From the NCBI RefSeq assembly GCF_008932245.1, contig NZ_CP034910.1, positions 1,302,001-1,366,000 on the forward strand: DNA of 64,000 nt, in the 5' to 3' direction. Under the pieces are notes generated by a model. That model was given only the letters and a program-made list of their open reading frames with translations, searched no databases and was not told the DNA's origin. Made by a program: the position numbers and the translations under genes. Positions 1,946 to 19,848 of this stretch are shown piece by piece. Origin of the DNA: Sinorhizobium alkalisoli (GTDB lineage: Bacteria; Pseudomonadota; Alphaproteobacteria; Rhizobiales; Rhizobiaceae). Position 1 is the first letter of the stretch. The number at the start of each line of letters is the position of its first letter.

Positions 1946-2665
1946 CTACCAGGAGAGTTCGGCTGGCGCGCGCTGAACGGTGTTTCGCCGCGTCTCGACG
2001 ATGCGCCCGTCCGCGAAGTAGAGCACGCGATTGGCAATCTCCGCAATCACAGCATTGTGGGTGATGAGCGCGGTGGTTGTTCCGAGCTCCCGATTGATCC
2101 TGAGTATCGCATCGAGCACGAGAATTCCCGTCTTGCTGTCGAGAGCGCCCGTGGGCTCGTCGCAAAGCAGCAGGTCGGGTCGCTTGGCGATGGCGCGGGC
2201 GATGGCGACCCGTTGCTGCTCGCCGCCGGAGAGCTGTGCGGGAAAATGATCCATCCGGTCGGAGAGGCCGACCATGGCCAGCGCGTCGCCAGGAGGCATC
2301 GGATCTCTGGCGATCTCGGTCACCAGCGAGACATTTTCGCGCGCGGTCAGGCTCGGAATTAGATTGTAGAACTGGAAGACGAAACCGACATGGTTGCGCC
2401 GGTAGAGATTCATCGCGCGCTCGCTGCCGAGCGAGAGCACGCGGTCGCGGAACATGACCGTACCGCTGGTCGGCGTATCGAGACCGCCGAGAATGTTGAG
2501 GAGGGTCGATTTGCCGCTTCCTGACGGTCCCAGCAGTACCACCAGCTCGCTTTCGCGGAGCTTGACGTCGACGCCCCGCAATGCATGGACCTCCACCGCT
2601 CCCATGCGATAGATCTTGATGAGATCGCGCGCCTCAAGGGCCAAGGCCGATGTCTCGTTTTCCAC
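1946..2665 (-). CDS. ABC transporter ATP-binding protein (LolD/MacB/DevA type)
   Basis: This is a 239-residue ABC ATPase. Walker A is GPSGSGKST, the signature is LSGGEQQRV, Walker B is [12 protein letters not shown] and the switch histidine is in ALITHN. The TGALD after Walker B is typical of the LolD/MacB class that pairs with FtsX permeases, and the permease gene follows 4 bases downstream. The frame opens at ATG 2704, but that codon lies inside a repeated intergenic element; GTG 2665 is preceded by AGGGAGA at a suitable distance and is preferred. It energises the partner permease, probably for lipoprotein, lipid or peptide handling rather than solute import. Confidence 0.87.
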
Positions 2666-2700
2666 CGGTTCTCCCTGTGTGACAAGGCGTTGCGACGACT

Positions 2701-2793
2701 GCATGTCTCGATAAATCGTTCAAGGACAAAGACGTGCAGCAATTCAAAGTGCTACGGTGACAGCCTTTGCACGTCTATTGGACGTGCGGAGCT
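2701..2793 (-). repeat. Rhizobial intergenic palindromic repeat, copy 1
   Basis: The stretch starts GCATGTCTC, continues through GCAGCAATTCAAAGTGCTAC (2736-2755), then CCTTTGCACGTC and ends in GGACGTGCGG. The same succession of blocks occurs at 45317-45407 and, in the other orientation, at 3801-3847 and 50158-50210. It resembles the RIME-type palindromic elements known between genes in Rhizobiaceae; the family name is inference. It overlaps the longest possible start of the ABC ATPase frame. Confidence 0.65.
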
Positions 2794-2888: not shown

Positions 2889-3719
2889 TCACCGCGCCAT
2901 CAAGACGGGGAGCTTCGTTTTGTCGAGCATCGATCGGGTTACGCCGCCGAAGATGAATTCACGCATTCGGGAGTGGCCGTAGGCGCCCATCACGATGATA
3001 TCGGCGGACACGTCGACCGCGTGTTGCTGGAGAACCTGCGCCACGGACTTTCCGCCGCTCGGCAATGTATCGACCGTCACCTTGATACCGTGCCGGGCGA
3101 GATAGGTGGCGACATCCGCACCGGGTTCATCGCCGCTCCCCCTGAGCGATGCCGTCGGATCGACCATCGTGACGCGAACGGAATCGGCTTTTGTCATCAT
3201 CTCCAGCGCTTCCCGCGCGGCGCGCGCGGACTGCGCCCGCGAATCCCACGCCAGCAGCACGGTCTTCGGCTGCAGCGTCGGTTCTGTGTCAGGCGGAATC
3301 AACAAGAGCGGGCGACCGGACTGGAGCAGCCCGCCGCCTATAACCTGTCGCTTCAAATCGGGATCGGCAAAGGCATTCGGGCCAACCAGGAGGAGATCGC
3401 AGTAGATCGAGCGTTCGCCAATGTCGTAGTCCGCGGCAGCCACTTCCGAATAGACGCTGTCGACGTCGTAGGAGATCTCACGTCGGCCGAGCAGTTGGCG
3501 TGCCCGCTCGACGCTTTCCTTGAGCGCCTGCACACTTCGATCTCGTTGTTCCACCCATCCCGGGGTCATGGTCGGATAACGCCCCATCGGCTCCGGCGCC
3601 CAGGAAGCGACGAGAATGCTCAGGTGCGCGTCTGCCTGAGCGCACAGATCGGCGGCAATCCGAACGTCCTCGTCGCCGTGCGAGGCGCCGACGACAGCGA
3701 GTATCGTCCTGACAGACAT
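2889..3719 (-). CDS. Universal stress protein, two Usp domains
   Basis: A 276-residue tandem Usp protein. The first domain opens with VRTILAVVGASHGDEDV; the second carries the nucleotide-binding signature G-x2-G-x9-G-(S/T) as GAYGHSRMREFIFGGVTRSM near the C-terminus. Tandem Usp proteins are cytoplasmic ATP-binding stress proteins, often induced by oxygen limitation. It lies 130 bases downstream of hsp20 on the same strand, separated by a perfect 11-bp inverted repeat (3741-3778), so it may be co-transcribed with hsp20 at reduced level. A second tandem Usp at 8989-9816 has nearly the same C-terminal signature, which suggests paralogy. Exact role unknown. Confidence 0.88.
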   Translation of the reverse strand: MSVRTILAVVGASHGDEDVRIAADLCAQADAHLSILVASWAPEPMGRYPTMTPGWVEQRDRSVQALKESVERARQLLGRREISYDVDSVYSEVAAADYDIGERSIYCDLLLVGPNAFADPDLKRQVIGGGLLQSGRPLLLIPPDTEPTLQPKTVLLAWDSRAQSARAAREALEMMTKADSVRVTMVDPTASLRGSGDEPGADVATYLARHGIKVTVDTLPSGGKSVAQVLQQHAVDVSADIIVMGAYGHSRMREFIFGGVTRSMLDKTKLPVLMAR

Positions 3720-3849: not shown

Positions 3850-4377
3850 CTAGGCGGCCTTCACCGCGACCTTGCGCTCCTTCTTTTGCGCGTCCTCGGT
3901 TTTCGGCAGGGTGATTGTCAGCACCCCCTTTGCGAAGGCTGCCTCAATCTTGTCGGCGTCGACGCCCTCTGGCACTTGGAAGGTGCGCTGAAACGATCCA
4001 TAACGGCGCTCGGAAAGGAAGTACTCCTTGCCCTTCTCTTCCTTCGTCTCCTGCTTCTCACCCTTGATCGTGAGGCTCCTGTTCGAGATCTTTACCTCGA
4101 TGTCCTTCTCCTCGATGCCGGGCAATTCGGCGGTGATCTCGTAAGCCTTCTCCGTCTCCGCGACGTCGACAGCCGGGGCCATAGCCCATTCCGATATGCG
4201 CGGCATCCGCTGCATCAGCGCGGACCCGAAGGGGCGGCGCCAGAGCGACGGGGCGAACTCGTCGAACAGGCGGTCGATTTCGGAGCGAAGGCTTTCAAAT
4301 GGAACCCAGGATTCTGCGCCTCGCTTGACTGCTTTCTCTTCCGTCTTGACGGGGAGTTTCGTTGCTTTCTCAGCCAT
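3850..4377 (-). CDS. Small heat-shock protein, Hsp20 family
   Basis: The frame extends to 4704, but the ATG at 4377 has GGAGGACC just upstream and starts the natural protein MAEKATKLPVK (175 residues). An alpha-crystallin domain occupies about residues 65-165: PAVDVAETEKAYEITAELPGI, then KISNRSLTIKGEKQ, and the A-x-x-x-n-GVLTITLPK motif at the end. It is an ATP-independent holdase chaperone of the class A bacterial type (RSEIDRLFDEF near the N-terminus). A FixK/FNR-type palindrome lies at 4508-4521, 137 bp ahead of the start, in the shared promoter region with ppsA. Usp follows downstream. Confidence 0.92.
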   Translation of the reverse strand: MAEKATKLPVKTEEKAVKRGAESWVPFESLRSEIDRLFDEFAPSLWRRPFGSALMQRMPRISEWAMAPAVDVAETEKAYEITAELPGIEEKDIEVKISNRSLTIKGEKQETKEEKGKEYFLSERRYGSFQRTFQVPEGVDADKIEAAFAKGVLTITLPKTEDAQKKERKVAVKAA

Positions 4378-4507: not shown

Positions 4508-4521
4508 TTGATCGGCGTCAA
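4508..4521. promoter_or_regulatory. FNR/FixK-type box (hsp20 side)
   Basis: TTGATCGGCGTCAA fits the TTGAY-N4-RTCAA dyad recognised by CRP/FNR-family regulators such as FixK. It is centred 137 bp before hsp20 and 148 bp before ppsA. If it activates at -41.5, the hsp20 message would have a leader of about 96 nt. Confidence 0.7.
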
Positions 4522-4593
4522 ACCCCGCATGGATGCTCGCCTTTGGCCCACCCGGCTGACAGCCGGTGTCGCCCCCTGAGAGATACCTTCACT

Positions 4594-4607
4594 TTGATGG
4601 GCATCAA
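4594..4607. promoter_or_regulatory. FNR/FixK-type box (ppsA side)
   Basis: TTGATGGGCATCAA is a perfect dyad centred 62 bp before the ppsA start codon. A class II position (-41.5) would put transcription start about 20 bases before the ATG. Confidence 0.78.
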
Positions 4608-4662
4608 CGTCGCACCTGCCCAGCCGGACTAAGGTGTTATCGGTCAACTGCGGGAGAGACCG

Positions 4663-7053
4663 ATGGGCGCTGCAATCATTTGGTTCGAGAATGTGCAACG
4701 ACACGACGTCGCCAAGGTCGGCGGCAAGAACGCCTCCCTCGGAGAGATGATTACCGCCTTGTCTTCGCGCGGCATAGAGGTGCCGACGGGCTTTGCGACG
4801 ACTGCCGAGGCCTATTGGCGCTTCATCGATGCAAACGGCCTGCGGGAGCCAATCGTCGCCTGGCTACAAGATTGGGAAAGCGGCAAGGCGTCGCTTGCCG
4901 AAACGGGTGCTGCGATCCGCAAGGCCATCGTTGGCGGGCGCTGGCCCATCGACATCGAAAAGGAGATCATCGCCGCCTACCGCGAACTCTCGCGAAAGCT
5001 CGACTTCGGGGACGCTTCTGTTGCTGTTCGTTCGAGCGCTACTGCGGAGGATCTCCCGACGGCAAGCTTTGCCGGGCAGCAGGAGAGCTTTCTGAACGTC
5101 GTCGGCGAGGAGGCCCTGATGGACGGCTGCCGGCGCTGCTTCGCTTCGCTCTTTACCGATCGCGCCATCAGCTACCGCAAGACGAACGGCTTCGACCACA
5201 TGAAAGTTGCTTTGTCCGTGGGCGTCCAGCAGATGGTTCGTTCCGATCTTGGTGGCGCCGGCGTCATGTTCTCGATCGAGACCGAGACCGGCTTCGACAA
5301 GGTCGTGCTGATCAACGCCGCCTGGGGGCTCGGCGAATATGTCGTCAAGGGCGTCGTCGATCCTGACGAATATCGCGTCTTCAAGCCGCTACTCACCGAT
5401 GCGGCACTTGCGCCTATCCTCCAGAAGAGACGCGGTACCAAGGCCGGCAAACTCATCTATGGCGACACCGGCGCGCCGACGCGCGGCGTTGCGACGTCGG
5501 CAGACGAACAGGCGAGCCTTGTCTTGAGCGACGAGGAGATCTTGACGCTCGCGCGCTGGGCGTTGGCGATCGAGGAGCATTATGGCTGCCCAATGGATAT
5601 CGAATGGGCAAAGGACGGCGGTAACAACCGAATATACATCGTGCAGGCGCGGCCAGAAACGGTGCAGGCGAGAGCCGCCGCCGGACTGCTCCCGACCTAC
5701 CATCTCGGCAAGAAGGGACGCCTTCTGGCAAAGGGACTGGCGATCGGCAATGCCATTGCGGCAGGGCCTGTGTGCCTGATCGACCGCCCGGAAGACATCG
5801 GCAAGTTCGTCGATGGCGCCATACTGGTGACCACGACCACGGATCCCGATTGGGTGCCGGTCATGAAGCGCGCTTCGGCTATCGTCACCGATCATGGAGG
5901 CCGCACCTCCCATGCGGCAATCGTCAGCCGCGAGCTCGGCGTCCCGGCAATCGTCGGGTCGGGAAATGCGATGGAGGCATTGCGCTCCGGTGTCGTCGTG
6001 ACGGTTTCCTGCGCGGAGGGTGACGAGGGCTTCATCTATGAGGGACGTGCCGAGTTCAAGGCGGAGACGATCAGTCTCGCGGACATTCCTGAGACGCGAA
6101 CCAAGGTGATGCTGAACCTTGCCGATCCCCAATCCGCCTCCCGCTGGTGGAGGCTCCCGGCCGACGGGATCGGTTTGGCACGAATGGAGTTCGTGATCAG
6201 CAATGCGATCCAGATCCACCCGATGGCGCTCGTGCACTTCGACCGCCTCAAAGACCGACAGGCGCGGGAGAGGATTACCGCTTTGACAGCGGGCTATCCG
6301 GAGAGGACCGACTATTTCGTCGACCAACTCGCACAAGGGCTCGCACGGCTCGCCGCTGTCGCCTACCCGCATCCGATTATCGTCCGTATGAGCGATTTCA
6401 AGACCAACGAATATGCCGGCCTATGCGGTGGGGCGGAGTTCGAGCCGCAGGAAGAAAATCCGATGATCGGCTTTCGCGGCGCATCGCGCTACTACTCGCC
6501 GAAATACCGCGACGGCTTCGCGCTCGAGTGCCGGGCGATCAAGCGGCTGCGCGAGACGATGGGTTTCCGAAACGTCGTCGTCATGATCCCGTTCTGTCGC
6601 TCGGTGGCCGAGGCGGAAAAGGTGCTTGCCGTCATGGCTGAAAACGGGCTCGTGCGGGGCGCCGACGGCCTGGAGGTCTATGTCATGTGCGAGATACCCT
6701 CCAATGTCGTGTTGGCGAGCGCCTTCGCAAGGTCTTTCGACGGCTTTTCGATCGGCTCCAACGATCTGACGCAACTGACGCTGGGGGTCGATCGCGACTC
6801 CGCAGATCTCGCCCCCTCCTTCAATGAGCAGGATGAGGCGGTGAAATGGATGATTGCCAAGGTCATCACCGAGGCCAGACAGGCCGGGGCGAAGATCGGT
6901 CTGTGCGGTCAGGCGCCGAGCGACCACCCCGACTTCGCGGCTTTCCTGGTCGAATGCGGCATCGACTCCGTGTCCGTCACGCCCGACAGCTTCGTCGCGG
7001 TGAAGGTGGCCGTGGCAGCGGCGGAGAAGGCGAGGAAGACAGCGGGCGGGTAA
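4663..7053 (+). CDS. ppsA: Phosphoenolpyruvate synthase
   Basis: A 796-residue protein of normal PpsA length. The N-terminal ATP-grasp domain begins VGGKNASLGEM and contains VRSSATAEDLPTASFAGQQE (about residues 122-141). The central phosphohistidine domain has GGRTSHAAIVSRELGVPAIV (about 412-431) with the catalytic His. The C-terminal TIM barrel has IGLARMEF, NPMIGFRGASRY, SIGSNDLTQLTLGVDRD and IGLCGQAPSD. It converts pyruvate and ATP to PEP, AMP and phosphate, feeding gluconeogenesis from dicarboxylates. Divergent from hsp20, with two FNR-type boxes in the shared region. Pyruvate phosphate dikinase is less likely because motif order and length fit PpsA. Confidence 0.93.
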   Translation: MGAAIIWFENVQRHDVAKVGGKNASLGEMITALSSRGIEVPTGFATTAEAYWRFIDANGLREPIVAWLQDWESGKASLAETGAAIRKAIVGGRWPIDIEKEIIAAYRELSRKLDFGDASVAVRSSATAEDLPTASFAGQQESFLNVVGEEALMDGCRRCFASLFTDRAISYRKTNGFDHMKVALSVGVQQMVRSDLGGAGVMFSIETETGFDKVVLINAAWGLGEYVVKGVVDPDEYRVFKPLLTDAALAPILQKRRGTKAGKLIYGDTGAPTRGVATSADEQASLVLSDEEILTLARWALAIEEHYGCPMDIEWAKDGGNNRIYIVQARPETVQARAAAGLLPTYHLGKKGRLLAKGLAIGNAIAAGPVCLIDRPEDIGKFVDGAILVTTTTDPDWVPVMKRASAIVTDHGGRTSHAAIVSRELGVPAIVGSGNAMEALRSGVVVTVSCAEGDEGFIYEGRAEFKAETISLADIPETRTKVMLNLADPQSASRWWRLPADGIGLARMEFVISNAIQIHPMALVHFDRLKDRQARERITALTAGYPERTDYFVDQLAQGLARLAAVAYPHPIIVRMSDFKTNEYAGLCGGAEFEPQEENPMIGFRGASRYYSPKYRDGFALECRAIKRLRETMGFRNVVVMIPFCRSVAEAEKVLAVMAENGLVRGADGLEVYVMCEIPSNVVLASAFARSFDGFSIGSNDLTQLTLGVDRDSADLAPSFNEQDEAVKWMIAKVITEARQAGAKIGLCGQAPSDHPDFAAFLVECGIDSVSVTPDSFVAVKVAVAAAEKARKTAGG

Positions 7054-7142
7054 CGCCCATCCGGCAAAAGCCAGCATGACAACGTCGACGCCCGTGCCGA
7101 GTCGGCGTAGCCTATTTCCTTTGAAGGCTGTTGGAGCAAGGA

Positions 7143-8765
7143 CTACACCTGCATTGCGGCCTCGGACAAGCCTTCCTTCGGCGCTTCGGGGATTTCTGTC
7201 ATCGTTGCCTCGGTCAGCAACAGCACGCTCGCAACGGAAACGGCGTTTTCGAGCGCAACGCGGATGACCTTCGTGGGATCGATGATACCCGCGGAGACCA
7301 GGTCGACATAGACTTTCCGACTCGCGTCAAAACCGAAATTGCCTTTTCCCTCCAGCATCTTGGCGACCACTACACCACCGTCGGTCGACGAGTTTTCGGC
7401 GATCTGCCGGGCTGGCAGCTCCAGCGCCCGCCTGAGGATCTGGACGCCTGTGCGCTCGTCTCCCTCGCAGGCCTCTTCTTCTTCCTCGACAGCCTGGATG
7501 CAGCGTAGCAGGGCAAGTCCCCCACCGGGCAGAATGCCTTCGGCCACGGCGGCCTTGGTCGCGCTGATCGCATCGTCGAGCGCCTCCTTCTTCGACTTCA
7601 GCTCCGCTTCGGTCGCAGCCCCCACCTTGATCACGGCAACGCCGCCTGAAAGCTTGGCCAGTCGCTCTTCGAGCTTCTCGCGATCGTAGCTGCTGGTCGT
7701 CGTCACTATTTCTCGCCGTATTTGCTCGGTGCGCGCACTGATCGCCTTCTTGTCTCCGGCCCCGCCGATGATCGTCGTAGTCTCTTTCGTGACGACGACT
7801 CGCTCGGCGCGGCCGAGCTGCTCGAAAGCGACGGTTTCGAGAGTTATGCCCAGCTCCTCGGAGATGAGCTGACCGCCCGTGAGAATGGCGATGTCCTGCA
7901 GCAGCGCCTTGCGGCGGTCTCCGAAGCCCGGCGCCTTGACCGCGCAATTCCTGAGCGTTCCGCGCATCTGGTTGACGATGAGCGTCGCCAGCGCTTCCGT
8001 CTCGACATCTTCGGCGATGATCAGCAGCGGTGTTCCGGATTTCGCGACGGCCTCCAGCAATTGCACGCAGTCCTTGAGGGAGTTGATCTTTCGGTCGAAC
8101 AGGAGGACCGCCGCTCCTTCGAGCACGACCTCCATTCGCTCGGCGTCGGTGACGAAATAGGGTGAGATGTAACCGCGATCGAACTGCATGCCCTCGACCA
8201 CCTCGAGAACGGTCTCGGTCGACTTCGATTCCTCGACGCTGATCACGCCCTCGTCTCCGACCTTTTCCAGGGCCTCGCCGATGAGCGCGCCGATCTGCGT
8301 GTCATTATGGGCGGAGATCGTCGCGACCTGTTCCTTCTCGCGCTTTTCCGAGACGGGACGCGAATTCTTCTTCAGTTCGGCGATGGCACGTTTCAGGGCC
8401 CGGTCGAGTCCGTGCTTGATGTCGATGGCGCTCGCGCCGGCGACGACGTTTCGCAGCCCATCGGCGAAGATCGCCTGAGCGAGGATGGTCGACGTGGTCG
8501 TCCCGTCGCCAACGATTTCCCCAGTCTTTTCCGCTGCCTGCCGCAGCATCCGCGCCCCAAGATTTTCTTCCGGATCCTTGAGATCGAACTCCTTCGCAAT
8601 GGTCACGCCGTCATTGCAGACGATCGGGGTTCCCCACTTTCTTTCGATCAGGACGGCCTTCGAGCGGGGGCCGAGCGTGACGCGTACCGCATCCGCCAGT
8701 TGCGTGGTGCCCCTCAAGATCTTCTCTCGGGCCGCAGAATGGAAAAGCACTTGCTTGTGAGCCAT
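7143..8765 (-). CDS. groEL: 60-kDa chaperonin GroEL, additional copy without groES
   Basis: A full-length 540-residue GroEL. ATP-site motifs are [30 protein letters not shown] (about residues 86-98), and [18 protein letters not shown] near 400-417. The C-terminus ends [14 protein letters not shown] and lacks the usual GGM-rich tail, and acidic runs such as [11 protein letters not shown] mark it as divergent. No groES precedes it: upstream is a regulatory region with two FNR-type boxes and a divergent usp gene. Rhizobia carry several groEL copies, some symbiosis-related; this one would need GroES from another locus. Confidence 0.95.
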
Positions 8766-8872
8766 GTTCCCACACTCCGTTGGCTATGGCGCACCGAAAA
8801 TCGTCCTCGATTTTCAGAAGGCTCGATGCGCACGGCGCTGTAATGTTTTTAACGCAGCGTGAAAACGGCGCT

Positions 8873-8886
8873 TTGACGCGCGTCAA
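8873..8886. promoter_or_regulatory. FNR/FixK-type box (groEL side)
   Basis: TTGACGCGCGTCAA is a perfect dyad centred 115 bp upstream of the groEL start and 109 bp upstream of usp. Position favours groEL control, with a predicted leader of roughly 73 nt. Confidence 0.72.
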
Positions 8887-8915
8887 ACCGGCATGCGGTC
8901 GACTCGTCCGAAACC

Positions 8916-8929
8916 TTGACCCCGGTCAA
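8916..8929. promoter_or_regulatory. FNR/FixK-type box (usp side)
   Basis: TTGACCCCGGTCAA is a perfect dyad centred 66 bp before the usp start at 8989, the same spacing as at ppsA (62) and the CBS gene (68). Confidence 0.78.
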
Positions 8930-8988
8930 GGCAGGTGGCGCGGTCGATGACTTATTCTCGCGAGTGACGAAGAATTGAGGTCACTGCG

Positions 8989-9816
8989 ATGATCTACAAC
9001 ACAATACTGGTACACCTTGGCATCCATGACGGCGCAGCACGGCAGTTGAAGTTCGCCCGTGAGCTCGCCTCGCGCTTCGACGCGAATCTGATCGGCTTCG
9101 CCGCGGGCGATATCCATCCGATCACCGCACCGCCACCGGGCGTGATCTTGGACGACGAGTTCCTTCGCCTCGAGACAAGGGAGATCGAACGGCGGCTGGT
9201 GGCGCTCAAGGCTGAATTCGAGGCCGACAGTGAGCGGGAAGGCGGCGGCTCACTCCGCACCGTGGTGGGCGATCCGACCCGGGAACTGGCCATCGCCGCA
9301 CGGGCGGCGGATCTCGTCATTGCCGGGCTGGGCCTTGGAAGCGGCGAATGCGACGGCCGCGACGCCGTCGATCTCGGTGAGCTGGTTCACTCCGCCGGCC
9401 GGCCGGTTCTCATCCCGCGGGACGATCTCGAACCATTACGGGCCAACAGCGTCGTCGTCGCGTGGAAGGATGCCCGCGAGGCGAGACGCGCAGTCGTGGA
9501 TGCGATGCCATTCCTCGTCCATGCGCGCGAAGTCCTTGTTGCCACGATTGCCGACCGCGAGCAGGATCTGGCGATGGCCAGTGCCGGCGATGTTGTCCGA
9601 TACTTGGTCAACCACGGAGCGAGAGCCCGTGCGGATGTCTTCAGCCCCGGCGATCGCCAGGATGGCGAGGCCTTGGCGGACATTTCCAGGCAGAATGGGG
9701 CGGATCTCATCGTATCCGGAGCCTATGGACACACCAGGTTTCGCGAGTGGCTATTGGGAGGCGTGACCCGTTCGCTGCTCAAGGAAGGAACTCTGAATCG
9801 CCTCATGTCGGCTTGA
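8989..9816 (+). CDS. Universal stress protein, two Usp domains
   Basis: A 275-residue tandem Usp protein. The first domain begins MIYNTILVHLGIHDGAARQL; the second ends with GAYGHTRFREWLLGGVTRSLL, matching the G-x2-G-x9-G-(S/T) ATP-binding signature. The final part closely matches the Usp at 2889-3719. Start chosen at the ATG after a short purine-rich stretch, 60-70 bases from an FNR-type box. The APH-like kinase gene follows 33 bases later and is probably co-transcribed. Function beyond stress association is unknown. Confidence 0.9.
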   Translation: MIYNTILVHLGIHDGAARQLKFARELASRFDANLIGFAAGDIHPITAPPPGVILDDEFLRLETREIERRLVALKAEFEADSEREGGGSLRTVVGDPTRELAIAARAADLVIAGLGLGSGECDGRDAVDLGELVHSAGRPVLIPRDDLEPLRANSVVVAWKDAREARRAVVDAMPFLVHAREVLVATIADREQDLAMASAGDVVRYLVNHGARARADVFSPGDRQDGEALADISRQNGADLIVSGAYGHTRFREWLLGGVTRSLLKEGTLNRLMSA

Positions 9817-9848
9817 GATGCCGATGGCGGCGTGCCGAGCGTTGAGCC

Positions 9849-10877
9849 ATGGCAAGCAGGACTGGAGCGATGACGGCACTGGGTGCCAAAGTGCAATTCC
9901 TCGCCGACCCGGCGTCCTATTTCGACCCTCCGGGCAGGATCATGACGAAGGAAACCCATATGTCCTGGGTTTTCATCGCCGATCGCTGGGTGCTGAAGCT
10001 GAAAAAGCCAGTAAAGCGAGCCTATCTGGATTTCAGCACGATCGCAGCACGAGAATTCTATTGTAACGAGGAACTCCGGCTGAACCGGCGACTGGCCCGC
10101 GATACCTATCTTGCCGTCAGACCGCTTTACTGCAGCGAAGACGGCTATCTGACATTCAAGCCGGCCGAGCGGATTGCCGATTGGCTCGTCGAGATGCGGC
10201 GGCTACCGACCGACGAGATGCTGGACGCCCGCATTGGGGCGAGCCGGATTGCGCCCGACGAGATTGCCGGCATCGGTGACCGACTTGCCCGCTTCTATAG
10301 TGACAGCACGCCGGAGATCGCCGACGGCCCGGCGTATATCCGACATCTACTCGAAGAACATGAGATAAACCGGGAGACGCTCCTGCGCCCGGAATTCGAC
10401 CTGGCGACCGCCGGAATCGATGCATTGATCGGATGGGTCGGAGCGGGGCTCAGTGACATGCGCAGCCTGATAGAGGCGCGCATAGCGCAAGGTCGGATCG
10501 TAGAAGGGCATGGGGACCTCAGACCGGAGCATGTCTGCCTCATCGACCCACCCCAGGTCATCGACTGTCTCGAGTTCAATCGCGCTATGCGGATCATCGA
10601 TCCTTACGACGAGATGAGCTACCTGGGGCTCGAATGCGAGGTGCTGGGAGCCGCTTGGATCACGCCGCTGCTTCTGTCCGCGCTTGACAAAGTGCTGGGC
10701 GATCGGCCGGACGATCGCCTGATCGCCTTGTACGGCGGATTTCGTGCCTTGCTGAGGGCAAGGCTTTGCCTTGTTCACTTGCTGGAGCACCCGGTACGCG
10801 AAGCCGAGAAGTGGCGCCCATTGGCGCTCGCCTACCTCAATGCCGCCAGGCAACGCATGTCACTCGTCGTCGCCTAG
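9849..10877 (+). CDS. Aminoglycoside phosphotransferase-like kinase (COG2187 type)
   Basis: A 342-residue protein with a protein-kinase-like fold. Its catalytic loop is HGDLRPEHVCL (around residue 222) and the metal-binding segment is IDCLEFN, with an N-terminal VLKLKKPVKRAYLDFS strand-lysine region. This matches the APH-like domain that in some bacteria is fused to an AAA/P-loop kinase; here it stands alone. Substrate unknown; antibiotic resistance is not implied. It follows usp by 33 bases and overlaps the end of prs by 18 bases (convergent). The ATG at 9870 is an alternative start. Confidence 0.78.
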   Translation: MASRTGAMTALGAKVQFLADPASYFDPPGRIMTKETHMSWVFIADRWVLKLKKPVKRAYLDFSTIAAREFYCNEELRLNRRLARDTYLAVRPLYCSEDGYLTFKPAERIADWLVEMRRLPTDEMLDARIGASRIAPDEIAGIGDRLARFYSDSTPEIADGPAYIRHLLEEHEINRETLLRPEFDLATAGIDALIGWVGAGLSDMRSLIEARIAQGRIVEGHGDLRPEHVCLIDPPQVIDCLEFNRAMRIIDPYDEMSYLGLECEVLGAAWITPLLLSALDKVLGDRPDDRLIALYGGFRALLRARLCLVHLLEHPVREAEKWRPLALAYLNAARQRMSLVVA

Positions 10878-11837
10878 GAGTGCGGCAATCGATCCGCCGT
10901 CGGCGAGCCGGCGGATGGCCTCGGCAAAAAGCGGAGCGCTCGGGATTACCTCGACAGAGGAGTGAAGGAGGTCCCTCTCAAGCGGGAAGGGAGCCACGGA
11001 ATCGGTCACGATGGTTCGTTCGATTGCGGGATGCGCCAGCGCCGCTTCGGCGCCCTTGCCGAAGAGCCCGTGCGTCACAACCGCGTAAACGGCCTTGGCA
11101 CCCCGCTGCCGACACGCTTCAGCAGCCCTCAACATCGTTCCGCCGGTGCTGATCATATCATCCACGATGAAGACGGTCGCGTTCTCGACCTCTCCGGCAA
11201 AGAGTTCGCCGGAAACAATGCCTCGGCTGCGCCGTTTTTCAAGCAGGCCGAACAGCGCGGCTTTTCCGGAGACGCGCTCGTACGCGTCCTTCAGCAGTTG
11301 CGCGCGCTTAACGCCGCCGCTGTCTGGAGAGAAAATCGCAACCGGCCCATCGGAAGTCTTTTGCGCAATGCGTGACGCGAACACGCCCTTGGCGCTCAGA
11401 TGTATGGTGCGGGAGCGGAAAGCGTTTTGAAAGGCCACGACATTGTGCACGTCGAATGCCACTAACTGATCGGTGCCGACGGCCTCGAAGAGCTCGGCCA
11501 CATAGCGCGTGGTCACGGGATCACGCGCCTTGGTTTGCCGGTCCTTGCGCGCATAGGCAAGGTAGGGAACGACAGCGGTAACCCGCGAGGCGCCGTTTTC
11601 GCGACAGGCGGCAATGAAGAAAAGCAGCTTCAGGAGCTTGTCATTGGCCGAACCATCCCTGTTGCCGTTGAGCGCATGGATGATGAAGACATCTTCGCCC
11701 CGCACGCTGACGAGCGGACGCGCCTTGTGTTCGCCATCCTCGAAATCGCGTTCTTCGTGCGCAGCGAGGGCAACCCCGGCGTTCGCGGCGATTTCCTGTC
11801 CGAGAGGTCTCGTTCCGTTCAGTGCAAAGATGCGCAT
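10860..11837 (-). CDS. prs: Ribose-phosphate pyrophosphokinase (PRPP synthetase), additional copy
   Basis: The frame extends to 11864, but MRIFALNGTRPLGQ at 11837 fits the family start (325 residues; usual length about 315). Recognisable parts are VVPYLAYARKDRQTK (ATP-binding flexible region), AFDVHN, SPDSGGVKRA and the PRPP loop VFIVDDMISTGGTMLRAA. It makes PRPP from ribose 5-phosphate and ATP for nucleotide, His and NAD synthesis. It diverges enough from housekeeping Prs that it is probably a second copy. A single FNR-type box is shared with the divergent CBS gene. No good ribosome site precedes the ATG, which would sit almost exactly at the predicted transcription start. Confidence 0.85.
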   Translation of the reverse strand: MRIFALNGTRPLGQEIAANAGVALAAHEERDFEDGEHKARPLVSVRGEDVFIIHALNGNRDGSANDKLLKLLFFIAACRENGASRVTAVVPYLAYARKDRQTKARDPVTTRYVAELFEAVGTDQLVAFDVHNVVAFQNAFRSRTIHLSAKGVFASRIAQKTSDGPVAIFSPDSGGVKRAQLLKDAYERVSGKAALFGLLEKRRSRGIVSGELFAGEVENATVFIVDDMISTGGTMLRAAEACRQRGAKAVYAVVTHGLFGKGAEAALAHPAIERTIVTDSVAPFPLERDLLHSSVEVIPSAPLFAEAIRRLADGGSIAALLGDDE

Positions 11838-11872
11838 GGGCAACACCATGAAACAAAGGCCCAATGCGTTCC

Positions 11873-11886
11873 TTGACCGTGGTCAA
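11873..11886. promoter_or_regulatory. FNR/FixK-type box shared by prs and the CBS-BON gene
   Basis: TTGACCGTGGTCAA is a perfect dyad. Its centre is 68 bp before the CBS-BON ATG (11947) and 42 bp before the prs ATG (11837). It is the only such site in this divergent region. Confidence 0.78.
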
Positions 11887-11946
11887 AGGCGCGTGGGCAC
11901 AGTCGAATCCCGCGAAACGTCGATCTGGTGCGGGAGTTGCAAAATC

Positions 11947-12606
11947 ATGCAGGCAAAGGATTTCATGACCCGAGGCGTTATCAGTATAAGCCCCGAGCAC
12001 AGCGTTAGCCATGCCGCGCGCCTTATGCTCGAAAACCACATTAGCGGTCTGCTCGTCCGAGACGATGAAGGCCAGCTACTTGGCGTATTGTCGGAGGGTG
12101 ACCTCCTGCGGCGCGCCGAACTGGGGCCGGCGGCGTGGAAGAGTTCGACGGAAAAACAGCATGCCTCGGCAGAGCGTTTCATCAAGAGCCACAGCTGGCA
12201 GGTCGGTGATGTCATGACGCGGAAACTCGTTACGGTCGACGGCGACACGCCGCTTGACCGCGTCGCTGCCATCATGGCGGCCAATCAAGTCAACCGTGTC
12301 CCTGTAATGCAGGGCGACGAAATCCTCGGCATCGTCACCCGCAGCGACATCCTGAGGGCGGTGGCCACATCCGTTCCGGATGTGGCGGCGACCGGGGACC
12401 AGGCGAAGCGGCGCGCGGTGTTCACGCGGCTGACGAGTGATCTCGGACTTGATCGCGAGAGCATAGACGTCACCGTCGACGATGGTATCGTCTGCCTATG
12501 GGGCGAGGTCGAGAGCGAGGCAAAGCGCGAGGCGGCCCGGGTCGTGGCCGAGAAGATCGGCGGGGTCGGTTGCGTCAAGAACAGGCTTCGCGTTGTTTCG
12601 AGTTGA
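11947..12606 (+). CDS. CBS-pair and BON domain protein
   Basis: The open frame reaches back to 11614, but the domain begins at ATG 11947 (MQAKDFMTRGVISI), giving 219 residues. Two CBS motifs cover about residues 1-60 (MTRGVISISPEHSVSHAARL, HISGLLVRDDEGQLLGVLSE) and 85-140 (VMTRKLVTVDGDTPLDRVAA, VNRVPVMQGDEILGIVTRSD). A BON domain (about 155-219) ends VAEKIGGVGCVKNRLRVV. CBS pairs sense adenosine nucleotides; BON domains bind membranes or phospholipid. The protein may act as an energy-status sensor. It is followed 9 bases later by the pfkB gene, so they are one transcription unit under the FNR-type box. Confidence 0.88.
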   Translation: MQAKDFMTRGVISISPEHSVSHAARLMLENHISGLLVRDDEGQLLGVLSEGDLLRRAELGPAAWKSSTEKQHASAERFIKSHSWQVGDVMTRKLVTVDGDTPLDRVAAIMAANQVNRVPVMQGDEILGIVTRSDILRAVATSVPDVAATGDQAKRRAVFTRLTSDLGLDRESIDVTVDDGIVCLWGEVESEAKREAARVVAEKIGGVGCVKNRLRVVSS

Positions 12607-12615
12607 GGACATTCG

Positions 12616-13560
12616 ATGACGGAACCCAGACCGAAGTCTGCACTGGCGATCGCACTGAACCCCACCATCGACGTCTCGAGCGAGGTCGACCGCGTGCAGC
12701 CGACCCGCAAGATGCGGACGCGTAACGAGCGCCGCCAGGCCGGCGGTGGCGGCGTGAACGTGGCGCGAGTCATTGCCGAACTCGGCGGGCGGCCCGAACT
12801 CCTGATCCTAACCGGTGGCGCAACGGGTGCAATGCTCGAGGATTGGCTGAGGAAACTGCCGATCGATCTGCACGTCGTGCCGATCACCGAATCCACGAGA
12901 ATTGCCTTTATGGTGCAAGAGAAGGAGAGCGGCTTCGAGTATCGCTTTGTTCCCGAAGGGCCGGAAGTATCGAAGGAGAACCTTGCGAATGCCTTGGAGA
13001 TCGTCAAGCGCTTCAACGGCGACTTCGTCGTGGCGAGCGGCAGCCTGCCTCGGGGGGCGCCGGAAGACACCTACGCGCGGATGGCCGAAGCGGCGGCTGC
13101 GAACGGCGCCAAGGTTCTGTTGGATTGTCCGGGATCGACCTTGCGGGAGACCTTGGGCAGGGCTCCCATTCTGCTGGTGAAGCCGAGCATCGGCGAGTTG
13201 GAGACGCTGGTCGGCCGCCGTCTCAACGAACACGGCGTCGGCGAAGCGGCGGCGACGCTGGTCAAGAATGGCGCCGCCGAATATGTCGCGGTCACCATGG
13301 GTCGCGAGGGTGCCTGGCTGGCCGGTCCGAATGGAATCCTGCGCGTACCCTCGAAACATGTCGTCGTCCAATCCGCCGTCGGGGCCGGCGACAGCTTCGT
13401 CGGGGCGGTGGTCTGGTTCCTGATGCAGGGCAAACCGATGGAAGATGCGTTCCGCTTGGGGGTGGCCGCGGGTGCGGCCGCTGCGATGACGCCCGGCACC
13501 GAGCTTTGCAGGCGCGACGATGTGTTCGCCATCTACGAAGCCGAGGCAGGGCGTTCTTGA
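12616..13560 (+). CDS. PfkB-family sugar kinase, probable (1-)phosphofructokinase
   Basis: A 314-residue ribokinase-fold enzyme. It opens ALAIALNPTIDVSSEVDRV, has the substrate motif RRQAGGGGVNVARVIAELGG (about residues 40-59) and the PfkB signature VGAGDSFVGAVVW (about 256-268) with the catalytic Asp. The NPTID start is characteristic of the FruK/LacC/PfkB phosphofructokinase branch. It would phosphorylate fructose 6-phosphate or 1-phosphate; without a PTS gene nearby the 6-phosphofructokinase II role is more likely. In operon with the CBS-BON gene. Confidence 0.85.
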   Translation: MTEPRPKSALAIALNPTIDVSSEVDRVQPTRKMRTRNERRQAGGGGVNVARVIAELGGRPELLILTGGATGAMLEDWLRKLPIDLHVVPITESTRIAFMVQEKESGFEYRFVPEGPEVSKENLANALEIVKRFNGDFVVASGSLPRGAPEDTYARMAEAAAANGAKVLLDCPGSTLRETLGRAPILLVKPSIGELETLVGRRLNEHGVGEAAATLVKNGAAEYVAVTMGREGAWLAGPNGILRVPSKHVVVQSAVGAGDSFVGAVVWFLMQGKPMEDAFRLGVAAGAAAAMTPGTELCRRDDVFAIYEAEAGRS

Positions 13561-13615: not shown

Positions 13616-15946
13616 TCAACCGTCCTCGAGCATCCGATAGATTTCCTGCTCCTGGGCGAAATGCAGCCGCGTGATCGCTTCGAGGCCGTGGAGCAGTCGC
13701 TGGATTTCGTAGCGTTGCGCGGGACTTGGCCCATCCTCGCCGACTGCCTTGCGAAGCGAAGCGAGGCTGTGTACCCGCCGCCGCATCTCCATATGCGTCC
13801 GACTCATGCCCGCAAGCGCGTCCGGCGTGTCCGTGCTACCACGCAGTTTCGGATAAAGTTCTTCATCGTCCTGCCGCTCGTGCTGAAGGAGACGTTGCCT
13901 GAGCAACACGTCCAGATCCGCAAGCTGCCGGCGGAATTCAGGTCCCGGCAAGTGCCCGACGCGTTCGGCCGTGTGGCGGATTTCGTCCACGACGTCGATC
14001 AAGTCACGATGCTCCTCTTCCAAGCGCAGGAGCTCCGCATGCGGCAGTCGCGGTCGCTTTCTCCAGCCCTGCACCGGCCCTGCAAGGGCGCGCAATGCAT
14101 TGAGGATCGCCACCACGTCGATGAGTTCCTGCAAGAGTGCGCCTTGGACCGGGGCCAGGTAGCCGAGTGCCGCGGCGATCATGCCGGCAATGGACAGGCC
14201 CATGCCGGCATAGACGCTCTGAAGGGCGATGCGGTGCGAACGCCGGGCGATCCGGATCGCGCTGACGAGGCGGTCGAGCCTGTCCACGAGAATGACGACG
14301 TCGGCCGCTTCGGAGGACGCGGCGGCGCCGCGCGCACTCATCGCCACCCCGATATCGGCGGCGGCGAGCGCCGGCGCGTCGTTCACGCCGTCGCCCACCA
14401 TCATGACTGGTCTCCCCGCGGCCTTTTCCGCCTCAACGATCCGGGTCTTGTCCTCCGGGGTCAATTCGGCCATCACACTGTCGACGTGGAGGAAGGATGC
14501 GAGGATCTCGGCCATTTCCGCACGATCGCCGGTAGCGAGCACGATACGCCGGGCCCCAGCCTCGCGTAAATGCCGGAGTACCGAGCCCGCCTCGGGCCTG
14601 ACCTCGTCCGCCAACAGGAACGCGCCTGCCAAGGACCTGTCCACGGCGACGAGGACGGCGACGAAACCGTCTCTTGCGATCCATTCTCGGATCTCTCGAG
14701 AAAAGCCACTCGCCTCGACTCGCGCGCTCACGAAGTCCCACCCTCCGACGGCAATCTCGTGACCTTCTACGCAGCCGGTCACTCCGGCTCCCGCCGTCTC
14801 GCGGGAAGCGGAGGGTGTGGAAAGTTCAAGTCCGCGTTCGCGCGCCGCCGCGACGAGCGCCCGGGCGATGACATGGTGGGAACCCTGGTCCAGCGATGCT
14901 GCAAGGCGCAGCACCTCGATCGGGTCGAGGTCGCCGCGGCATCTCGCATCGATCAGCCCGGCCCGGCCGTCGGTGATCGTGCCCGTCTTGTCCAGAAGCA
15001 CCGTTTTCGTGTTGGCCAGCATCTCCAGGGCGCCGCCACCTTTGACGAGCACGCCTTTGCCGGCGCAGCGCGACACGCCCGAGATGATTGCCACCGGCAC
15101 GGCAAGGATCAACGGACAGGGCGTGGCGACAACGAGGACGGCGAGCGCCCGGATCGCCTCCCCGGATACGGCCCAGGCCCCGCCGGCAAGCAGTAGCGTG
15201 ATGGCCAGAAAAACGAGTGCGTAGCGGTCCGCGAGACGCGCCATCGGTGCCTTGGCGGCCCTTGCCGCCTCGACCAGTCTTGCAATCGCGGCGTAGGTGC
15301 TCTCGGCTGCCGTGTGCGATGCAGTCATTTGGAAGGCATCGCCGGCATTCGTCGTGCCGCTCAGCACCGGTTCGCCGGACCGCCGGCGGACTGGCAGGGC
15401 CTCTCCGGTCAGAGCCGACTCGTCGATGACGGCGACATTGCCGTCCTCCACATTTCCGTCCACCGCCACGACTTCTCCTGCACGCACCAGGATGCAATTG
15501 CCGGCCGCCAGCGCTCCGACGGGTACCTCCTCCCATTGCCCTTCCGCAAAGCGCATGGCGGTGCGCGGCGCCCGATCAAGCAGCGCCGTCAGCTCGCGCC
15601 GCGCCCGCCGCTGCGCAAACTCCTCCAATGCCTGCCCGCCCGTGAACATCAGCGCGACGATGCTGCCGGTCAGGTATTCTCCAAGGAGAAGCGCGCCCGC
15701 CATCGCGAGTGCGGCGATGATGTCGAGCCCGAATTCCCTTTTGCCGAGGCTGATCGCGATCTCGGTGATGAGGCTCGCCAGCACAACTGCGGTGCCCGCA
15801 GCCCAAGCGGCTGTGCTGATCTCGGGCCGGCCGGCGAACCAGGCGGCGCCGCCCGTCAGCAGCGCCGAAGCAATCAGCGCGAGGAGAAGGCGCCTGCCCA
15901 ATTCCTCTCCCTGCGAAATCAGTTTGGAAAAGCGGTTCGGCCTCAA
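13616..15946 (-). CDS. P1B-type metal-transporting ATPase with C-terminal hemerythrin domain
   Basis: The frame is open to 16048, but TTG 15946 has AAAGGAG immediately upstream and is preferred (776 residues). Core P-type motifs are present: actuator TGEALPV, phosphorylation site DKTGTI, and MVGDGVNDAPALAAADIGVA. The transmembrane metal motif is TPCP (ATPCPLILAVPVAI) and helix 8 has QELIDVVAILNALR. No N-terminal CxxC metal domain is seen. The last roughly 140 residues form a hemerythrin-like domain (EEEHRDLIDVV, QHERQDDEELYP, HMEMRR, HFAQEQEIY) with the expected His/Glu ligands. TPCP plus hemerythrin is the P1B-5 pattern (for example S. meliloti Nia, linked to Ni/Fe in nodules). Probable inner-membrane metal exporter. 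Confidence 0.9.
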   Translation of the reverse strand: MRPNRFSKLISQGEELGRRLLLALIASALLTGGAAWFAGRPEISTAAWAAGTAVVLASLITEIAISLGKREFGLDIIAALAMAGALLLGEYLTGSIVALMFTGGQALEEFAQRRARRELTALLDRAPRTAMRFAEGQWEEVPVGALAAGNCILVRAGEVVAVDGNVEDGNVAVIDESALTGEALPVRRRSGEPVLSGTTNAGDAFQMTASHTAAESTYAAIARLVEAARAAKAPMARLADRYALVFLAITLLLAGGAWAVSGEAIRALAVLVVATPCPLILAVPVAIISGVSRCAGKGVLVKGGGALEMLANTKTVLLDKTGTITDGRAGLIDARCRGDLDPIEVLRLAASLDQGSHHVIARALVAAARERGLELSTPSASRETAGAGVTGCVEGHEIAVGGWDFVSARVEASGFSREIREWIARDGFVAVLVAVDRSLAGAFLLADEVRPEAGSVLRHLREAGARRIVLATGDRAEMAEILASFLHVDSVMAELTPEDKTRIVEAEKAAGRPVMMVGDGVNDAPALAAADIGVAMSARGAAASSEAADVVILVDRLDRLVSAIRIARRSHRIALQSVYAGMGLSIAGMIAAALGYLAPVQGALLQELIDVVAILNALRALAGPVQGWRKRPRLPHAELLRLEEEHRDLIDVVDEIRHTAERVGHLPGPEFRRQLADLDVLLRQRLLQHERQDDEELYPKLRGSTDTPDALAGMSRTHMEMRRRVHSLASLRKAVGEDGPSPAQRYEIQRLLHGLEAITRLHFAQEQEIYRMLEDG

Positions 15947-16109
15947 GTTTTCTCCTTTGCAGGGGACAAGAATATGCGAGGTGCCTTGACCCTGCGCAAG
16001 TCGCCTGCAAGCGCGCTTTTTAGGCCGCCATCTCGAGTAATCGCTCAAATTGTCGTGAGCCAGGCGCCCACCGCATGGCTGTGCTGCGCTTTGGCTCTAG
16101 GTCGTGGGC

Positions 16110-17894: not shown

Positions 17895-18080
17895 GATGTG
17901 CTCCTTTCGTGTCGGAGGAATTGCGCAAGAATAGCGCAAACGGCAAAGTTTTCGAGCGCGAAACGCGTCGTCGCTCCCGGCAATGAGCAAGATCGTCCGG
18001 CTTCACGTCGACCGGCTCGTGCGCCAGTGCCGCGGCCGCATTGCATTGACACCCCGGGGCTGCTGACGCATAGAATGCCG

Positions 18081-18172
18081 CCATTCCGAGGGGAGCGCCG
18101 GGCGGCGCTGAGACGGTGGTGAGCCGGACCCTTGAACCTGATCCGGGTCATGCCGGCGTAGGAACGGAATGG
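18081..18172 (+). promoter_or_regulatory. TPP riboswitch (THI element)
   Basis: The conserved core is present: GGGAGCGCCGGGCGGCGCTGAGA (split 18091-18113; the CTGAGA is at 18108-18113), then ACCCTTGAACCTGATCCGGG and CATGCCGGCGTAGGAACGGA. The closing helix P1 is CCATTCCG (18081-18088) with CGGAATGG (18165-18172), eight perfect pairs. It lies 71 bases before thiD and should switch thiD off when thiamine pyrophosphate is plentiful. Confidence 0.95.
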
Positions 18173-18243
18173 GTCGCCCTCGGCAAGCCAAGCCAATTCT
18201 TCGCCTTACCGGATCTCCGTGACGTGTGTCGGGAGTTCGATAG

Positions 18244-19062
18244 ATGATGCCTCCTCGCCCCATTGCGCCGGTGGCGCTCACCATTGCCGGATCGGATTCG
18301 GGCGGCGGTGCCGGCATCCAGGCCGACCTCAAGACCTTCTCGGCGCTCGGGGTTTACGGTGCAAGCGTCGTTACGGCGATCACCGCGCAGAACACCAGGG
18401 GTGTTGCCGCCGTTGAGGACGTCTCGGCCGGAATGGTGGCGGCACAGATGGAAGCTGTACTTAGCGACCTGGACGTGAAGGCGGTGAAGATCGGCATGGT
18501 GTCGCGACGGGAGACAATTGCCGTCATCGCCGATGGCCTGCGCCGTTACGGCAGGCTTGCGGTCGTCGACCCGGTGATGGTTGCAACCTCCGGCGATCGT
18601 CTGCTCCACCCGGGAGCGATCGCAGCACTCATCGAAGACCTGCTGCCTCTGGCACTCGTCGCGACCCCGAACCTGGCCGAAGCGGCACTTCTGACCGGCC
18701 GTCCGACCGCCGAGAGTGAAGGAGAGATGGTGCGCCAGGCCGAGGCGCTCTTGAAGACTGGAGCCCGTTCCGTGCTGGTCAAAGGAGGACATCTGCCCGG
18801 TGGCGACGCCACGGACGTCTTCCTCGATGGCCAAACGTTGCTGCGTCTGCCGGCATCGCGCATAGAGACACACAATGATCACGGTACCGGCTGCACCCTT
18901 TCAGCTGCAATCGCCGCGGGCCTCGCTTCGGGGCTACCGCTCGCCGAAGCGGTCCGCGCAGCCAAACATTATCTGCATGGAGCAATTTCCGCCGCCGACG
19001 ACCTGAAGGTCGGGCAGGGGCGGGGACCGGTGCATCATTTCCACCAATGGTGGAACTCTTAA
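18244..19062 (+). CDS. thiD: Hydroxymethylpyrimidine/phosphomethylpyrimidine kinase
   Basis: A 272-residue ribokinase-fold enzyme. N-terminal signature [20 protein letters not shown], then [11 protein letters not shown]; the anion hole is [16 protein letters not shown] near residue 215. It phosphorylates HMP and HMP-P to HMP-PP for thiamine synthesis. A TPP riboswitch directly upstream supports the assignment. ATG 18244 or the next codon ATG 18247 could be used. It is not followed by other thi genes. Confidence 0.95.
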
Positions 19063-19377: not shown

Positions 19378-19848
19378 ATCAGTCGCGCGGCGGCGCCTGC
19401 CGACCTGAGGTCCCGCACGGTAGAATTCTCACACGTGGAACATCGGCGGCGACATTGACGACAGTGCACGCGCTGGCGGCAAACCAGGACCTCCCAACCT
19501 GCTATGAGTGCCCGTTCCTTCCCTGGAGCGGGCACTCGTTGCAGGCGCGGATGCCGTGAACGTGATCCCCGATAGCCTCGCCAAGTCTCGATTGTGCCAT
19601 CTCCATGCGTATAATCTCATTTAGGAAGAAATGTAATTCGATGAAATTACGATGATTCTCCGCAACGCGCGAGAATAGTCTGTGCAAATATCAGCATTGT
19701 CTATTATACCGTTGGAGAGAGACTGCGAAAACGACGGCTAATTGTCCATTAGGACTTGAAAAAAGCCTTTTGTAATAGCAATGTCATTCGCCACGCATGC
19801 GAGCGTCTATTCTGCGGCGACTTTGTGCAGCTTACGGGAGGTGAAAGT
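19378..19848. other. Gene-free stretch upstream of the large LysM gene
   Basis: The first half contains a perfect 9-bp inverted repeat, GAGTGCCCG (19506-19514) with CGGGCACTC (19529-19537), without a T-run. From about 19605 to 19850 the sequence becomes clearly AT-rich compared with the rest of the window, as expected of a promoter region or acquired DNA. No convincing gene or sRNA was seen. Confidence 0.55.

Follow-up and report, generated by a model that had tools for sequence, protein, structure and literature searches.

Clustered FixK/FNR-type boxes in Sinorhizobium alkalisoli and the probable low-oxygen stress and energy island headed by hFixL, FxkR and FixK

We analyzed a 64-kb stretch of the Sinorhizobium alkalisoli genome (hereafter the window; C2:1302001-1366000 in a three-contig genome of 6.13 Mb, G000) in which five palindromes of the form TTGAY-N4-RTCAA lie in front of stress and energy genes. 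Overall, these boxes are very likely bound by an activator of the FixK/FnrN type and belong to a low-oxygen island of stress and energy genes headed by a hybrid FixL kinase (hFixL), the regulator FxkR and FixK. The five boxes form the right end of this larger island, which spans about 25-35 kb and of which the window carries the right half. The boxes, their recurrence and spacing in relatives, the three regulator genes and the binding motif of FxkR (the K-box) can be read directly from the DNA.

A first-pass annotation of the window had reported five such sites, always in divergent intergenic regions. All five are exact and are the only ones in the window, with no further match there even to the looser TTGA-N6-TCAA, and all three box-bearing regions (hsp20/ppsA, groEL/usp and prs/CBS-BON) are indeed divergent. 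The box TTGATCGGCGTCAA (4508..4521) is centred 137.5 bp 5' of the hsp20 start codon, TTGATGGGCATCAA (4594..4607) 62.5 bp 5' of ppsA, TTGACGCGCGTCAA (8873..8886) 114.5 bp 5' of groEL and TTGACCCCGGTCAA (8916..8929) 66.5 bp 5' of usp. The fifth, TTGACCGTGGTCAA (11873..11886), is centred 42.5 bp 5' of prs and 67.5 bp 5' of the CBS-BON gene, and alignment identifies it as the prs-side box. The distances first given for ppsA, usp and CBS-BON (62, 66 and 68 bp) agree with these values. Dinucleotide shuffling predicted 0.17 sites per window, with a maximum of two in 100 shuffles, so that five were never reached. The earlier estimate of one site per 65 kb by chance understated the excess, because only the eight fixed bases had been counted and the Y and R positions make the pattern rarer. 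To the right of position 20000 (44 kb), the window contains no box and one site of the reversed pattern.

A scan of the whole genome gave 46 such sites in 6.13 Mb, versus five for the reversed pattern. It extended the cluster to the left of the window by four boxes (C2:1289022, 1297506, 1297542 and 1298684). The cluster thus comprises nine boxes in 24,865 bp, whereas the density elsewhere in the genome predicts 0.15 (Poisson P ~1e-13, which is only indicative because the span was picked after the cluster was seen). All nine are intergenic, and intergenic DNA makes up 15.5% of the counted span. Among the 37 sites outside the island, several fall within predicted genes and could be chance matches; the named genes behind such outside sites include fixN, fixG, hemN, hemA, an fnrN-like gene, a pseudoazurin gene and three universal stress protein genes. 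The sole fixN above cut-off is on C1, a separate replicon from the island, and C3 has no TTGAY-N4-RTCAA box. Also outside the island, three identical palindromes, TTGACAGCTGTCAA, occur within 1.3 kb (C2:452665, 453785 and 453930; L065) and possibly belong to another regulator or a repeat.

The regulators are encoded just beyond the left edge of the window, at C2:1293461-1296972: a hybrid FixL kinase, a FixK-type regulator and an OmpR-type regulator. The kinase has the domain order PAS-PAS-HisKA-HATPase-receiver, and its second PAS domain can be aligned with FixL haem-PAS domains of known structure (8js5, E 6.5e-49; 1dp6, E 1.3e-46). This domain preserves an HD.Y histidine, which we take to be the haem ligand, and an IIGIGR stretch that presumably holds signalling residues. 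As a predicted haem-PAS kinase with a C-terminal receiver, it has the make-up of the kinase of an hFixL-FxkR-FixK cascade. A regular expression for the haem motif matched four of 20 PAS loci (our genome, the related genomes G045 and G071, and S. sojae) and all four plasmid loci; since the expression is strict, we conclude nothing from its misses. The CRP/FNR protein of the island has cysteines at 129 and 166 only and lacks the N-terminal cysteine cluster of FNR and FnrN, so it is FixK-like rather than an Fe-S sensor. It shares with the FnrN-like protein of the genome an ETVSR recognition helix, which we read as a motif of the ExxSR type. FxkR consists of a receiver and a Trans_reg_C domain, as expected of an OmpR-type regulator, and its gene stands head to head with fixK.

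The fixK/fxkR intergenic region contains GTTACAAATTGTTACA, the sole perfect K-box in the genome, which matches the published consensus GTTACA-N4-GTTACA (PMC7888657, PMC4999443, which also give the anaerobox consensus; here and below, cited papers are represented by the passages available to us). Across ten fixK/fxkR intergenic regions, the K-box is perfect in seven (three of these being S. meliloti records that share the same box), has one mismatch in two and two mismatches in one. Beside fxkR lies a small gene for a 147-aa protein without Pfam match (L061:14002-14445), found in the same place in all nine other hFixL islands examined, at 44-73% identity.

Searching our genome with the haem-PAS domain returned the island kinase (100%) and two weak matches (30% and 33%), and a query with the whole kinase agreed. 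The same search gave three matches at 61-79% in G071 and one strong match each in G045 and S. sojae. Because G071 yields three, a second FixL would have been detected, and the island hFixL appears to be the only FixL of the genome (FixJ was not searched for). If this is correct, the FixK network of the cell would receive its haem-FixL signal from the island.

The pattern recurs in relatives. The closest plasmid record is pSJ05684b of S. sojae CCBAU 05684 (89.0% identity across 93% of a 9.7-kb query). The APH-like kinase of the island was matched in 61 of 247 genomes of the family, the distant matches being 25-32% identical and lying in longer open frames. Neighbourhoods were taken for the better matches in 15 genomes besides S. 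sojae, for six named plasmid loci including S. sojae, and for two more. All of these 23 loci contain boxes, 1-14 each, while the reversed-pattern control gave none in any of the 23, counts that show recurrence rather than an unbiased survey for reasons weighed below. Box spacing recurs as well. The nearest box is at -62.5 to -70.5 before usp in eight of ten rows, our own included, at -68.5 to -70.5 before the gene of the MBL/beta-CASP protein in seven of eight, and at -61.5 to -68.5 before CBS-BON in five of six. For ppsA it is at -60.5 to -62.5 in four of five rows (three species, with our genome, G045 and S. sojae among them) and at -119.5 in S. fredii. For groEL it is at -57.5 to -67.5 in nine of 13 rows and farther off in our genome (-114.5), G045 and S. 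sojae. The nearest hsp20 box lies at -128.5 to -165.5 in 11 of 13 rows, with a recurring -10 element like TTAAAT or TCTAAT, and the nearest prs box at -39.5 to -42.5 in seven of 15.

When 65 promoters, which are related sequences and not independent, were aligned on the box centre, the AT fraction was 0.62-0.86 at positions 30-35 on the gene side and at most 0.49 on the upstream side past the box flank. This AT-rich -10 spacing fits an activator bound at about -41.5. As a set, the promoters combine TTGAY-N4-RTCAA with a -10 element about 32 bp downstream, the exceptions being CBS-BON in our genome and the weak -10 at our prs. The proposal that these are FixK/FNR-type sites likely controlling the gene group is supported by their recurrence with an AT-rich -10 across genera and from the hFixL-FxkR-FixK set next to them. 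The hsp20 leader, about 96 nt long if the -10 is right, was also examined for an RNA thermometer, a candidate we rejected (no Rfam match; RNAalifold -4.73 kcal/mol, with one both-sided change in 13 pairs).

From the sequence we infer the oxygen response, the direction of the phosphorelay, the activation and the physiological role as follows. Falling oxygen would lead the haem-PAS hybrid kinase hFixL to activate FxkR, which would bind the K-box GTTACAAATTGTTACA and induce fixK. FixK, without FNR-type cysteines, would then occupy the boxes, some 41.5 bp upstream of the transcription starts, and switch on hsp20-usp, ppsA, groEL, usp-APH, prs, argF and the genes of an MBL/beta-CASP protein and an APH/AAA kinase. 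At still lower oxygen, these boxes are probably also used by the FnrN-like protein encoded on C1, whose cysteines mark it as an Fe-S protein. While oxygen limits respiration, the products of the island would shield proteins and redirect the metabolism of carbon, arginine and nucleotides. A broader version, which we put forward only tentatively, is that of a mobile, self-wired persistence module in which the sole haem-FixL commands the whole FixK network, including chromosomal fixNOQP and haem synthesis, and prs is transcribed without a leader through its FixK box.

Several points weigh against the reading as a FixK-driven island. Here no box of its own precedes usp1, acsADP (for an ADP-type acetate-CoA ligase), APH or pfkB, and no perfect box lies before the P-type ATPase and HlyD-ABC transporter genes, so the membership of all of these is argued from operon or neighbourhood. 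The box of the APH/AAA gene lies just 21.5 bp 5' of the called start; the true start is likely later. The CBS-BON promoter of our genome looks damaged by a deletion. A K-box with one mismatch is not commoner than its reversed control (10 versus 9 matches), and for this reason we count only the perfect, conserved one. The relatives behind the box counts were chosen because of their island genes; several of them are closely related, and certain rows come from the same genome. Furthermore, a second FNR-like or FixK-like protein (C2:1755292, 33% identical) might also bind the boxes, and FixK and FnrN share one box, so that either may act at a given site.

The last point leads to an alternative to which we give a minor but real share of probability, namely that FnrN, an Fe-S protein sensing oxygen directly, mainly works the boxes and that the cascade mainly serves other targets. 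It overlaps with the reading that we prefer, and the weights of the two are not meant to add up to certainty. The genome does encode an FnrN-like protein (C1:1853094) that has a C-x2-C-x7-C cluster and whose gene is preceded by two boxes; its FnrL match is below the NCBI cut-off (220.7 of 300 bits). A small heat shock protein of R. leguminosarum, which acts in symbiosis, is induced about 50-fold at low oxygen only with FnrN (PMC11784457). On the other hand, the island itself encodes FixK, FxkR and hFixL, and their genes accompany it in S. sojae, S. fredii, S. meliloti and E. adhaerens. In free-living R. leguminosarum 3841, moreover, the key activator at 1% O2 is hFixL-FxkR-FixK rather than FnrN (PMC7888657).

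It is very improbable that the boxes serve a nitric oxide or nitrate regulator of the NnrR/DNR type instead of an oxygen cascade. There are other CRP/FNR proteins in the genome, and one of them (C2:797945) adjoins a pseudoazurin gene with a box. Nevertheless, all boxes have TTGA half-sites, although the NnrR consensus TTG-N8-CAAA (as given in the passages of PMC5596199) would not exclude them by itself, and the adjoining kinase has the haem-PAS domain of FixL. A chance cluster of palindromes, for which nothing speaks beyond the small number of sites, can be practically dismissed: the shuffles and the genome-wide excess, the intergenic bias, the -10 spacing and the fact that other genera have boxes in front of the same genes all contradict it.

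The annotation had further suggested a maintenance programme for bacteroids. It is true that the genome has nifH, that the genomes in which hFixL, fixK and fxkR lie beside other island genes (our own, G045, S. sojae and G071) all have nifH above cut-off, and that the S. fredii and S. meliloti records come from legume symbionts. However, the island is on C2 and nifH on C3, which is without a box. Part of the island, with the APH-like gene and surrounding boxes as a minimum, is shared by 17 genomes, and 12 of them have no nifH above cut-off (two of the 12 being less than 90% complete). A plasmid of E. adhaerens from a sedge rhizosphere carries most of the island, and a Bosea plasmid carries groEL, usp, prs and the APH-like gene together. 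A programme dedicated to bacteroids is therefore unlikely, and this part of the original proposal is unsupported.

On the E. adhaerens plasmid, the gene order from the kinase to prs is kept and 14 boxes occur in 44 kb. Boxes stand at -62.5 (ppsA), -42.5 (prs) and -69.5 (usp), the MBL gene has none, and no match to acsADP, CBS-BON or pfkB was obtained on this plasmid. The match to ppsA there is split into two pieces that lie in different frames (L167:30129-32499). A near-full island is found on S. fredii pSF45436d (201 kb) and a partial one on S. meliloti pSmeSM11a (144 kb). Because both plasmids are typed conjugative, the island is probably mobile. Plasmids of Azospirillum and Variovorax match the APH-like protein only.

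The divergent prs/CBS-BON promoter (11838-11946 in the window) exists in three states in three sister genomes. G045 has two boxes, one per gene. S. sojae keeps the CBS-side box and has one changed base in the prs-side box. In our genome, a 44-bp gap removes the CBS-side box together with the CTATAC -10 that both sisters keep. CBS-BON is consequently the least secure of the three promoters named by the annotation: its distance of 67.5 bp was right, and the promoter itself is doubtful, as the box there is the prs-side one by alignment. We also considered a fusion of the two boxes and rejected it, since the alignment shows the CBS-side box and -10 to be gone and the prs-side box to lie by chance at the usual CBS distance. 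The prs box lies 39.5-42.5 bp 5' of the ATG in several genera, with a TATAAT in between in G045. From this spacing a transcription start at or next to the ATG is expected, and prs mRNA may be leaderless. Against this, the -10 of our genome is weaker (TTTCAT) and eight of 15 rows have no box at this distance. Leaderless transcripts have been suggested for B. japonicum, where 192 starts fall exactly at start codons (PMC4842269).

Within the window, the gene of an ABC transporter ATP-binding subunit (1946..2704, minus strand) has an FtsX-type permease piece and HlyD to its left and is kept in the S. fredii and S. meliloti islands. It is followed on the minus strand by usp1, a universal stress protein gene (Pfam Usp; 2889..3719) downstream of hsp20, and by hsp20 itself, for an Hsp20/alpha-crystallin small heat shock protein (3850..4377). 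Next come ppsA for phosphoenolpyruvate synthase (4663..7053, plus strand; TIGR01418 above cut-off) and the gene of the GroEL chaperonin (7143..8765, minus strand; TIGR02348 above cut-off). The second universal stress protein gene (8989..9816, plus strand) shows a partial match to the Pfam Usp domain, and its S. fredii orthologue is annotated likewise. The APH-like kinase gene (9849..10877, plus strand) has no Pfam or NCBIfam match; its product shares 29% identity with the APH half of the APH/AAA protein of the island (L061:6050-7654), itself behind a box. Further on lie prs for ribose-phosphate diphosphokinase (10860..11837, minus strand; TIGR01251 above cut-off), the CBS-BON gene (two CBS domains and a BON domain; 11947..12606, plus strand) and a PfkB-type hexose kinase gene (12616..13560, plus strand; TIGR03168 above cut-off). 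The gene of a heavy-metal P-type ATPase (13616..15967, minus strand), without a perfect box in front, has an orthologue near related islands.

The 19 kb to the left of the window (L061) contain, in order, the APH/AAA kinase gene behind a box, acsADP, whose product has a GNAT domain, the PAS hybrid kinase, CRP/FNR regulator and OmpR-type regulator genes, the small gene without Pfam match, argF for ornithine carbamoyltransferase behind two boxes, the MBL/beta-CASP gene behind a box, and HlyD. Elsewhere in the window, a thiamine pyrophosphate riboswitch (18079-18181; Rfam RF00059, 68.9 bits) lies directly 5' of a gene (18244-19062) whose product we take to resemble ThiD, and a long open frame (19756-22941, 1061 aa) has an N-terminal part that looks LysM-like by eye.

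One DNA block here unites a predicted low-oxygen programme from sensor and relay to activator and targets. This block is also found on conjugative plasmids in relatives, and both in legume symbionts and in a rhizosphere isolate, and allows testing whether oxygen-controlled persistence can move as a unit. It also assigns testable low-oxygen roles to the APH-like kinase, of an unnamed family, and to the gene of the phosphoribosyl pyrophosphate synthase.

Among known systems, the cascade is like that of R. etli and R. leguminosarum (PMC7888657, PMC4999443), with a hybrid FixL with C-terminal receiver, an OmpR-type FxkR, a K-box before fixK, a FixK without cysteine cluster, anaeroboxes at the targets and a fixK-hfixL gene pair. 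Unlike in R. leguminosarum 3841, where the fixK9a-hfixL9 operon adjoins fixNOQP9, the cascade here heads a stress and carbon island and fixN is on C1. The targets resemble the FixK2 regulon of B. diazoefficiens, in which boxes precede groEL5, hspC2, usp, ppsA, a gene for a host attachment protein and a CBS gene (PMC9104804), and in whose low-oxygen proteome glucokinase and a kinase of the 1-phosphofructokinase family also rise (PMC6515984). There, in contrast, FixLJ-FixK2 drives the regulon and several boxes depart from the strict palindrome, e.g. that of ppsA, TTGACCTGCCTCAA. We did not find prs, argF, MBL or the APH-like kinase in the FixK2 passages of these two papers. Since much of the gene set (groEL5, hspC2, usp, ppsA and the CBS gene, with boxes) already stands in the B. 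diazoefficiens FixK2 table (PMC9104804, PMC6515984), the programme is not undescribed, contrary to what the annotation had suggested. Our literature search on the cascade and the island, thin on closed journals, did not find the island described for an S. sojae-like strain.

The pSymA replicon of S. meliloti has a 120-kb region, SMa1077-SMa1297, with dense FixK-like motifs and extra FNR-like regulators (PMC5596199). Like our island, pSymA of strain 1021 combines boxes and a perfect K-box with genes for hFixL, FixK, FxkR, MBL, HlyD-ABC, Hsp20 and acetate-CoA ligase. Its fixK is, by its place in the unannotated record, taken to be SMa1141, and its fxkR matches in two pieces in different frames (L084:15375-16105). 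In 49 kb of pSymA, no match to ppsA, groEL, APH, prs, CBS-BON, pfkB or argF was obtained at E 1e-15. A further likeness, by gene names alone, links the island with the low-oxygen lxa cluster of B. cenocepacia and with DosR, through universal stress proteins, a small heat shock protein, BON, MBL and phosphofructokinase; the parallel between lxa and DosR is drawn by PMC6127331 itself. Overall, the island is a well-formed new example of a known low-oxygen system and not a new kind. Its new details are a kinase that appears to be the only FixL of its genome, a prs mRNA that may be leaderless, and a CBS-BON promoter that looks damaged by deletion.

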